A stretch of 40,340 bases of DNA from Nitrospiria bacterium (GTDB lineage Bacteria > Nitrospirota > UBA9217). Numbering within the stretch: the first letter of the stretch is position 1; every line of letters starts with the position of its first letter. The position numbers were made by a program, and so were the translations under genes. The DNA is taken from contig CAKKRC010000083.1 in NCBI GenBank assembly GCA_919902495.1, positions 1 through 40,340 of the forward strand, given 5' to 3'. This document shows positions 17,010 to 39,978 of this stretch, piece after piece. Under the pieces are notes generated by a model. That model did not search any database. It saw only the letters and a program-made list of their open reading frames with translations, and was not told the DNA's origin.

Positions 17010-17085
17010 GGGCCCATAGCTCAGCTGGTAGAGCTACCGGCTCATAACCGGTTGGTCCCAGGTTCGAGTCCTGGTGGGCCCACCA
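17010..17085 (+). tRNA. tRNA with CAT anticodon (Met, or Ile2)
   Basis: A complete 76-base cloverleaf including CCA: acceptor GGGCCCA/TGGGCCC, D-arm AGCTCAGCTGGTAGAGCT, anticodon arm ACCGG-CTCATAA-CCGGT and T-arm CCAGG-TTCGAGT-CCTGG. The anticodon is CAT. The overall sequence looks like elongator tRNA-Met, but a lysidine-modified tRNA-Ile2 cannot be excluded by eye. The initiator type is unlikely because position 1 pairs normally. Confidence 0.93.
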
Positions 17086-18552: not shown

Positions 18553-18919
18553 CAGAGCGGGTGAGGTGATCGCTCCCCGGAAACGGGGGGAGGAAAGTCC
18601 GAGCTCCACAGGGCAAGGCGGTCCCGAAACGGGACAGGGGGCGACCCCATGGAAAGTGCCACAGAAAAGAAGACCGCCCGCAAGGGCAAGGGTGAAACGG
18701 TGGGGTAAGAGCCCACCAGGTTCCCGGGCGACCGGGAATGCTTGGAAAACCCCGCCTGGAGCAAGATCACATAGGGAAGCGTCCCCCGCAAGGGGGTAAG
18801 GACGGCCCGTCCGAGACTTCCGGGTAGATCGCTCGAGTCCCGCAGCAATGCGGGACCCAGATAAATGCTCACCGCCCCGGGAAACCGGGGAGACAGAACT
18901 CGGCTTACGGCCCGCTCTG
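18553..18919 (+). ncRNA. rnpB: RNase P RNA (type A)
   Basis: A 367-base RNA whose ends pair as CAGAGCGGG and CCCGCTCTG (P1). The conserved core GAGGAAAGTCCGAGCTCC is near the 5' end, with ACAGGGCAAG after it, and the 3' side carries the P4 partner near AACTCGGCTTACGGCCC. Several GNRA-capped stems are visible (for example CCCGGAAACGGG, CCCGAAACGGG, CCGGGAAACCGG). A T-run (TTTTTTT) directly follows P1. As catalytic RNA of RNase P it matures tRNA 5' ends. Confidence 0.97.
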
Positions 18920-18959
18920 ATTTTTTTATTCTCCCGACGTCATAGGAGCACGCTCCTCA

Positions 18960-37921: not shown

Positions 37922-38992
37922 TTACCTGCTTGGTGGATTATTTCCAACAATCATTATTTCTATAATCCAAGGACCTTCTCTAAGAGGAAATAGTGAATCT
38001 GGCGACCAGGCTTTCTTGTCGATGGTTTTCAATTTTTCTGTGAATAGAGCGAATTTTTTTGAATCAAGGGACACTGTCAGCACCTGAGCATTTGTAACTA
38101 CATCATGTTTGATCACTGCTCCTTCGAGGTCGCGGATGATTAAGCGGACTTTCGATATAGCAGCAGAAATATCATTGCTGGCAAGGGAATAATGTACATC
38201 CGCAGCTGCCTTGTCTTGCTTTTTTCTGGAGGCGGCTTCTTGTGGCTTTAACGAGAGTGCATCGCTCGATGAACTTTTTTGTGCCGCCTGCTCAGCCATT
38301 TGGAAAGGCGCGGCAGATTTCTTAGCCTTTAGAGCAAAAGCACGTTTCTCAAGATCGGCCTCATCCTTAACAGGTATTGTCGCTTCCCGCCTTGCCGGTG
38401 CTGGCGCTAATGCAGCCGGTTCCTCGCGGGTCGCAACAGCCTCTACGCCAGGTGCTGCAGGCAACGGAGGTGCAGGTTTTTCGTATTCGTATTTCATGTC
38501 CAGGGACTTGTAGTCTGGCACCTGCGCGACCTTCTTCTCGCGGCGTTCAGCGATCTCGGGAGCCTTATGCTTAGGTGCAGCACGCGATGCGTCATCTGCC
38601 TCCCGTTTCGCGAATCGCTCTATCGGGGCTTCTGCATATTTTTTTGTCGGATGCATGGTTGTATATAGGTAGAAAGCTGTGACCGACAGGAACAGGACAG
38701 CCACGGCCTGAACCGGGAACTGCCTGAGGAAGGGAGCAAAGACTCGCTGCCAGAGGCCCGTCTTCGCTTCCTGTTCAGCCCGCACCTTTGCCATGATCTT
38801 CTGCGTCATCCAGGCCGGGGATTCCACCTCCTCGACCGCATGGATATGTTCGATTGTCTTGCGTAGTTCGCGCAGCGCGTCCGAGCATTCGGTACAGGTC
38901 TTCAAATGTAGTTCGATGGTTTCCTTTTCACCGGGCGTGACCGCGCCGTCGATGAATTCCGATAATTTATGGCGCATCTCTTCGTGTTTCAT
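37922..38992 (-). CDS. Anti-sigma factor with zf-HC2 and C-terminal DUF4349-like region
   Basis: A 356-residue membrane anti-sigma factor. The zinc-binding HxxxCxxC (His29, Cys33, Cys36) of the ZAS/zf-HC2 domain is at the N-terminus, then one membrane helix (about 92-110, FPVQAVAVLFLSVTAFYLY). The extracytoplasmic part is Ala/Lys/Pro-rich, then DUF4349-like (VHYSLASNDISAAISKVRLIIRDLEGAV). It would hold the ECF sigma factor until an envelope signal releases it. Its start codon overlaps the sigma stop (ATGA), so the two are coupled. SD GGGAG about 8 bases before ATG 38992. Confidence 0.87.
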   Translation of the reverse strand: MKHEEMRHKLSEFIDGAVTPGEKETIELHLKTCTECSDALRELRKTIEHIHAVEEVESPAWMTQKIMAKVRAEQEAKTGLWQRVFAPFLRQFPVQAVAVLFLSVTAFYLYTTMHPTKKYAEAPIERFAKREADDASRAAPKHKAPEIAERREKKVAQVPDYKSLDMKYEYEKPAPPLPAAPGVEAVATREEPAALAPAPARREATIPVKDEADLEKRAFALKAKKSAAPFQMAEQAAQKSSSSDALSLKPQEAASRKKQDKAAADVHYSLASNDISAAISKVRLIIRDLEGAVIKHDVVTNAQVLTVSLDSKKFALFTEKLKTIDKKAWSPDSLFPLREGPWIIEIMIVGNNPPSR

Positions 38993-39612
38993 AGGAGGTC
39001 TCCCATGGACTTCTTCAAACAATCCTTCACCGATTCTCGCGCACGGAAGAGCCGTGACTTGACCGTGCCCGCGGCGACCTTCAGCATGCCGCCGATCTCT
39101 TCGTAGGAATAATCCTGCAGGTCACGAAGGACCAGGACCTCGCGGAAGTCCGGCTCAAGCGCCTTGATGCAGTCCTGGACCTTTGCCTGTACATCGCGCT
39201 TTTCCATCCGGTCCAGGACCGAGGGCTCGCCGGAAGGCGGATCGGGCATCATTTCGCCGTCATCCGTCCGGATCGGCGCGTCGAGCGAGACCGGGACCCG
39301 TGCCTGGTGCAGCTTCATCCGCTTCAGCCGGTTCCTCGACAGGTTCATGGTGATCGCCGTGAGCCAGGTCGAGAACTTCGCTTCAGCACGGAAGCCCCTC
39401 AGGTTCCGGTATGCCGAGACGAACGCATCCTGCACGACCTCGCAGGCGTCGTCGTGATCGCCCAGGAAACGGAAGGCGATGTTCAGCATCCGCTTCTGGT
39501 ATTTTGCCACCAGGGCCTCGAACGCGGACAGGTCGCCCTGTTGAGACAAGGCGACAAGGGATGCATCGGCGTCAAGGGCGCCTGAGCTGTTCTCTGTCGG
39601 AATATTAGACAT
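38989..39612 (-). CDS. ECF-type RNA polymerase sigma factor
   Basis: A 207-residue sigma factor with only regions 2 and 4. Region 2: LVAKYQKRMLNIAFRFLGDHDDACEVVQDAFVSAYRNLRGFRAEAKFSTWLTAITMNLSRNRLKR. Region 4: CIKALEPDFREVLVLRDLQDYSYEEIGGMLKVAAGTVKSRLFRARESVKDCLKK. It is RpoE-like and paired with a membrane anti-sigma factor, so it should respond to envelope stress. The ATG at 39612 has no SD; an element GGAAC-N18-GTCTAAT overlaps it, which could mean autoregulation or a misplaced start. Confidence 0.93.
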   Translation of the reverse strand: MSNIPTENSSGALDADASLVALSQQGDLSAFEALVAKYQKRMLNIAFRFLGDHDDACEVVQDAFVSAYRNLRGFRAEAKFSTWLTAITMNLSRNRLKRMKLHQARVPVSLDAPIRTDDGEMMPDPPSGEPSVLDRMEKRDVQAKVQDCIKALEPDFREVLVLRDLQDYSYEEIGGMLKVAAGTVKSRLFRARESVKDCLKKSMGDLL

Positions 39613-39660: not shown

Positions 39661-39689
39661 TTGGTCCTAAACGGCACCTGTGATACAAT
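39661..39689 (+). promoter_or_regulatory. sigma70-type promoter of the selenoprotein gene
   Basis: TTGGTC, 17-base spacer, TACAAT preceded by TGA (extended -10). The expected start is about 45 bases before the ATG at 39742. Confidence 0.6.
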
Positions 39690-39741
39690 TTTATCAGAAC
39701 GGCCCGGGAATGACCACCGGGAAAAGAAGGGAGGCAAAACC

Positions 39742-39957
39742 ATGGCGGACAAGATCACGATCTTCGGGAAAGCCGGCTGACCGTACACGGACAAGGCCCG
39801 TGAGGCCTACGGGAACAAGGCTGTCTACGTTGATGTAAAACAGGACCAATCAAGGCTCGATGAGATGCTCACCTACTCCAAGGGACAGCGCAAGGTGCCG
39901 GTGATCGTTGAAGGCGACAAGGTCTCGGTCGGCTACGGCGGTTCTTGAGGGGTGTAA
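39742..39957 (+). CDS. Glutaredoxin-like selenoprotein with two Sec codons (UXX-star type)
   Basis: A 71-residue product if both in-frame TGA codons are read as selenocysteine (U). The first TGA is codon 13, giving KAGUPYT, a glutaredoxin-like redox motif in the first loop after a beta strand (ITIFGKAG). The second is codon 69, followed by Gly-Val and TAA, giving a C-terminal GGSUGV. The middle reads as a thioredoxin-fold protein (VYVDVKQDQSRLDEML, then KVPVIVEGDKVSVGYGG). The SD GGGAGGC precedes the ATG, and the promoter is at 39661. Each TGA is followed by a hairpin with its loop 18-19 bases downstream (39799 and 39966), the normal bacterial SECIS distance. I recall an NCBIfam group named UXX-star that ends this way, but could not check. 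Standard gene callers would miss or truncate it. Confidence 0.85.
39781..39812 (+). promoter_or_regulatory. SECIS-like hairpin for the first Sec codon
   Basis: After the TGA at 39778-39780 an outer CCGTA/TACGG stem and an inner GGCC/GGCC stem enclose the loop CGTGA, which starts 19 bases after the TGA. Apical GU bases are present, as in known bacterial SECIS loops. Confidence 0.6.
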
Positions 39958-39978
39958 CGACCGGCGGTCGCCGGTCGT
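39957..39978 (+). promoter_or_regulatory. SECIS-like hairpin for the second Sec codon
   Basis: A perfect 9-bp stem ACGACCGGC/GCCGGTCGT with a GGTC loop starting 18 bases after the TGA at 39946-39948. GGU in the loop fits the bacterial SECIS consensus. It begins at the last base of the TAA and may also help to end transcription, though no T-run follows. Confidence 0.65.

Follow-up and report, generated by a model that had tools for sequence, protein, structure and literature searches.

The closest described systems are the UXX-star selenoproteins, which combine a glutaredoxin-like core with a terminal UXX form. Table 1 of a 2026 review, in the portion of it that was available (PMC13188914), lists "Distant Grx-like protein 1 (UXX-star selenoprotein family 1)" as a UxxT protein with two selenocysteine (Sec) residues and UXX-star family 2 as a protein with one, and the accessible part of PMC9312934 lists "Distant Grx-like protein 1, UxxT". 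Family 1 was not found in the accessible part of PMC2398784, the paper that the review cites for it. The same portion of the review (PMC13188914) provides a bSECIS model with a loop of 3-9 nt, an upper stem of 4-16 bp, a G at loop position 1 or 2 and a loop located 16-37 nt after the UGA.

The window, as we term the whole 40,340-nt stretch of DNA analysed here, corresponds to contig C83 of a draft genome with a size of 3.67 Mb and a completeness of 97%. Translation of positions 39742-39957 of its forward strand with UGA as Sec yields MADKITIFGKAGUPYT...GGSUGV-stop. The first-pass annotation of this sequence had described an open reading frame with TGA at codons 13 and 69 followed by TAA, giving GUPYT and a terminal U-G-V on readthrough, and all of these elements are found exactly where it placed them. 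It had also reported a Shine-Dalgarno sequence and an extended -10 promoter; the former is present as GGGAGG, while the latter can be read in the sequence but is not listed by the promoter scan. The features of the gene are as follows.

39742..39957, forward strand: UXX-star selenoprotein family 1 gene, 71 residues including the predicted Sec13 and Sec69, TAA stop (TGA=U translation; NF041114.2 match)
39778..39780, forward strand: UGA codon 13 (predicted Sec13, within G-U-P-Y-T; sequence and translation, relatives)
39946..39948, forward strand: UGA codon 69 (predicted Sec69, third codon before the stop; sequence and translation, relatives)
39955-39957, forward strand: TAA stop (read in the sequence)
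39729..39734, forward strand: Shine-Dalgarno-like GGGAGG (read in the sequence)
39681..39689, forward strand: extended -10-like TGATACAAT (read in the sequence; weak, absent from the promoter scan list)

The encoded protein matches the NCBIfam profile NF041114.2, "UXX-star selenoprotein family 1", over its full length (positions 1-70 of 70) with a score of 112.9 bits (cut-off 72, E 6e-33), and no substantive difference from this family was found. It shares the glutaredoxin-like core and the terminal UXX form with families 2 (NF041211) and 3 (NF047338), but scores only 44.2 and 46.8 bits against them, below their cut-offs of 100 and 97, and it differs from family 2 also in having two Sec codons rather than the single Sec listed in the available portion of PMC13188914. 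Among broader profiles, it exceeds the gathering cut-off of Pfam Glutaredoxin PF00462 (35.6 against 22.9 bits) and falls short of the curated cut-off of TIGR02181 (glutaredoxin 3, GRX_bact; 30.3 against 90 bits). With UPYT at residues 13-16 and predicted Sec at 13 and 69, the gene agrees with the review's entry for family 1, and the locus is in all likelihood an ordinary member of this family, decoded as Sec at both UGAs. Because the portion of PMC13188914 that was available lists family 1 with two Sec, two Sec appear to be its norm; the first-pass remark that a pair of Sec is unusual for a 71-residue protein thus holds in general, but not for this family. This kind of protein is already catalogued, and the window gene is a clean known example of it; what is new here are the SECIS covariation, the tight UGA-Sec/UGA-stop pairs and an AhpF-like neighbour specific to one taxonomic family. 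When NF041212 was used to search for Cys-ending homologues, the one open-frame match that was translated (L136) had a different C-terminus.

The host genome contains profile matches over curated cut-offs for selC (64.1 bits), selB (383.6), selA (609.9) and selD (364.5), with selA and selB together on contig C45. The earlier annotation had called for a search for these genes and had tied its reading to selB and selC; all four are present. Family members are also widespread in the phylum: 62 of 395 genomes drawn from it match the family at E<=1e-12, 61 of them over the cut-off, as do 51 of 148 related genomes at E<=1e-3, 32 over the cut-off. According to a reading-based count of the overlap between two row lists, selB (E<=1e-60) occurs in 57/62 phylum genomes with the family versus 120/333 without it (Fisher p 2.8e-17). 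The five gene-carrying genomes with no selB over the cut-off, on the original and on a repeat search, comprise two that are 74 and 79% complete and three that are 96-99% complete. Several genomes (G165, G179, G282, G284 and G356) have two or three selB matches.

Conservation of both TGA codons was assessed across these relatives. The 63 match rows from the 395 phylum genomes, tallied by reading, display two TGA codons in 55 cases, one in six, none in one and TGA plus TAA in one, and some of the one-TGA rows merely stop short of codon 69: both Sec appear in L066, L074, L084 and L087 once these rows are extended. Among 64 distinct rows, which include L019 and a member of another family (L053), residues 13 and 69 are U/U in 57, C/U in three and U/W in one, with no terminal motif found in three; codon 13 is Sec in 61/64 and Cys in 3/64. 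Three loci missed by the motif script (L083, L061 and L091) were read separately later. A C-terminus can be read in 61 relatives. Sixty of them have TGA as codon 69 and the other has TGG; TAA and TAG do not occur there, while the codon three positions further on is TAA in 24, TAG in 18 and TGA in 18, the remaining row being a codon longer. Stop identity changes 24 times on a tree of 60 rows that is based on few columns and has many unresolved forks. Because codon 69 is fixed as TGA beside a freely changing stop, we interpret codon 69 as a residue and the third codon after it as the stop, and the window protein almost certainly carries two Sec. Eleven columns are invariant among 59 aligned sequences (G9, 13, P14, T16, A19, L43, V52, P53, G64, G67 and 69), with a mean column identity of 65%. 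The homologue comparison proposed in the first-pass annotation therefore bears out its reading, since TGA is conserved at both codons and 60/61 relatives continue from codon 68 with TGA, two residues and a stop, instead of ending there without Cys or Sec; together with the family match and the Sec machinery, this supports its description of a double-Sec glutaredoxin-like protein.

Two relatives depart from the pattern at one codon. L016 has TGG at codon 69, and the hairpin still follows. L061 (G352:C63:5125-5325) has TAA at codon 13, where every other row shows TGA or codes for Cys, and is otherwise intact; its genome also holds a second copy with two TGA (L091), and the TAA may stem from an assembly error, decay or something else.

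Each UGA is followed by a candidate SECIS element.

39794..39808, forward strand: putative in-frame SECIS 1, AGGCC-CGUGA-GGCCU, 5 bp, loop 39799-39803 starting at +19 after UGA13 (relatives)
39957..39978, forward strand: putative SECIS 2, 9-bp stem (ACGACCGGC/GCCGGUCGU), GGUC loop 39966-39969, almost wholly 3' of the stop (folding and relatives)

The perfect 9-bp stem and GGU loop that had been noted after UGA69 are as described, and the window's hairpin folds with an MFE of -21.1 kcal/mol (z -2.9), a value equalled by none of 200 shuffles, with its loop starting at +18. Among 61 relatives, the loop of the 3' hairpin starts between +17 and +28 and contains GU in 50, and the stems vary in sequence yet still pair. 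Since the hairpin finder maximises pairing, the fair number is that of the dinucleotide-shuffling control, which gave p<0.05 in 47/60 relatives and missed in 13/60 (L017, L019, L053 and L090 having been dropped from the 64 rows).

For the element after UGA13, both the MFE and the hairpin script favour other hairpins over 39794-39808 in the window's own RNA, and because its MFE is another fold, the case for SECIS 1 rests on relatives. The script found a hairpin in 63 of the 64 rows given to it, and in 43 of these 63 the loop of the best one starts at +19. Codons 19 and 21 have third bases that face each other in the stem, and these are Watson-Crick partners in 57 of 58 Sec13 rows (C-G 46, T-A 9, A-T 2, one mismatch), compared with a shuffled mean of 38.9 and with 0/20000 shuffles as high, a statistic that ignores the relatedness of rows; of the 64 rows, this test excluded L019, L053 and L017, which is identical in sequence to L034. 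The pair is kept in only one of the three Cys13 relatives. A larger hairpin at 39781-39812 was considered and rejected: it is the MFE fold, but 39/200 shuffles are as good (z -0.91) and one of its pairs is broken in the same-genus copy L024. The first-pass annotation had drawn its hairpin after UGA13 at 39781-39812; the conserved element is instead the shorter one at 39794-39808, with its loop at +19.

Both elements comply with the bSECIS model, SECIS 1 with 5 bp, CGUGA and +19 and SECIS 2 with 9 bp, GGUC and +18, and it is very probable that each UGA has its own SECIS. SelB with Sec-tRNA would read UGA13 via the in-frame hairpin at 39794-39808, and UGA69 via the hairpin at 39957-39978 behind the stop codon. 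Comparative evidence for both elements thus points to a 71-codon bacterial gene in which two UGAs are apparently read as Sec, with one hairpin each.

The gene lies close to the end of the contig, with the following neighbours.

38989-39612, reverse strand: ECF sigma factor, upstream and divergent from the selenoprotein gene
37922-39022, reverse strand: zf-HC2 protein, probably the anti-sigma factor of the ECF sigma factor, upstream and divergent
40121 (start): isochorismatase-family gene, downstream of the selenoprotein gene and cut by the contig end

Comparison of 38 of the 41 large neighbourhoods (L083, L091 and L092 being left out) revealed an AhpF-like flavoprotein with TrxR and PDO domains downstream of the gene in 9/9 further loci of taxonomic family f1; the window was not counted because its contig ends there. 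The AhpF-like neighbour is absent from the 28/28 loci examined outside f1. Within f1, the zf-HC2 gene is present at 7/10 loci and the sigma factor at 5/10. As the AhpF-like gene accompanies every countable f1 locus and none outside it, its product is a plausible reductase partner within f1 only, an assignment that we regard as tentative and less likely than not.

The structure model of the protein (pLDDT 88.3, pTM 0.72) drops to a pLDDT of 75 in its last block, with the last residues less certain. It matches BC3987, glutaredoxins and NrdH with Z up to 9.0 and rmsd 1.8-2.3 over 61-67 residues, aligning to glutaredoxin-type structures only up to residue 67-68, and the best Foldseek match is a glutaredoxin (E 1e-3). 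The fold is common to classical glutaredoxin 3 and NrdH (Z 8.4 for E. coli Grx3 and 8.6 for NrdH), but the window protein has no Cys at the resolving position, 16, of its UPYT site, and ends just after the glycine motif, where Sec69 is located. In glutaredoxins, this glycine-rich motif lies near the thiol-binding groove. The function we infer is that of a short redoxin of the Grx fold whose Sec13 and Sec69 form a pair. Because Cys16 is missing and the second Sec comes right after the glycine motif, we favour a redox pair formed by Sec13 and Sec69, to which we give about even chances. Sec13 would attack the substrate, Sec69 would resolve the Sec13-bound substrate, and the protein would cycle between a two-selenol form and one with an intramolecular diselenide; a flavoprotein reductase would reduce the diselenide, in f1 probably the AhpF-like protein encoded nearby. 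SelL is said to have been described, in a 2007 PNAS paper, as a selenoprotein whose redox motif contains a diselenide. The diselenide idea would be common to both proteins, but the Sec pair of SelL is said to be within one redox motif, whereas that of the window protein is 56 residues apart.

The main alternative to a Sec13-Sec69 redox pair is that the two selenols together make up a binding site for a metal or metalloid, for instance Hg, As or Cu, the protein acting as a carrier or sink and not as a redox catalyst. The near invariance of both Sec positions would suit such a site, and the portion of PMC13188914 that was available suggests that the Sec residues of UXX-star proteins may serve as ligands for metals. 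No recurring metal-resistance gene, however, lies beside the loci examined, and the recurrent neighbour, within f1 only, is a thiol reductase; we consider a metal site unlikely, though a good deal less so than the alternatives that concern decoding. A two-selenol active site would merit biochemical testing.

Decoding could be more limited than proposed, with UGA13 alone read as Sec and UGA69 acting as a true stop, so that the protein would end at Ser68. UGA is a normal bacterial stop, and the model aligns only residues 1-67 to glutaredoxins, but a stop codon would be expected neither to remain TGA in the face of the stop variation seen three codons on nor to be followed by a hairpin conserved with compensating changes. 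On the conserved TGA and the variable stop beyond it, we rejected a stop at codon 69, which is very improbable. It is also conceivable that the gene is a glutaredoxin in decay whose TGA codons arose by chance, given that a single base change turns TGT, TGC or TGG into TGA and that L061 and L016 carry TAA and TGG at the respective codons. Against this stand TGA at both codons in 57/64 distinct rows, the column identity reported above and the selenocysteine machinery in the genome; conservation rules out this reading, whose probability is close to nil.

In 18/61 relatives (e.g. L029, L062, L068 and L087) the stop is itself a UGA that lies 9 nt downstream of the Sec codon and 9 nt closer to the same 3' hairpin, whereas the window has TAA. 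A third Sec at this UGA was considered and rejected: it would add a tail of 0-269 residues, as counted in the rows that yielded a length (L017 gave none), and the tail is not conserved. Judging by titles and the abstracts shown, no publication on either UGA-Sec/UGA-stop pairs or bacterial diselenide glutaredoxins was found, which is not proof of absence. Comparison across the UGA-stop relatives could readily show how sharply the choice between Sec and stop depends on the distance to the SECIS. A combined picture, in which the protein would be a compact two-selenol redoxin working via an intramolecular Sec13-Sec69 diselenide and the mRNAs a natural test of SECIS reach, is one we put forward as possible, at somewhat less than even chances.

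Searches for relatives in plasmid records returned none, and three loci on viral contigs match weakly (32-69% over part). Elsewhere in the window are the following RNA genes.

18554-18922: RNase P RNA, class A
17010-17082, and at the left end of the window: tRNA genes

The host selD (G000:C28:84998-85912, L055) has one in-frame TGA, and for that reason SelD is probably itself a selenoprotein. The same genome encodes a second, YruB-like glutaredoxin-like protein (L053:1333-1734) with a U-P-Y-C motif and no terminal Sec.
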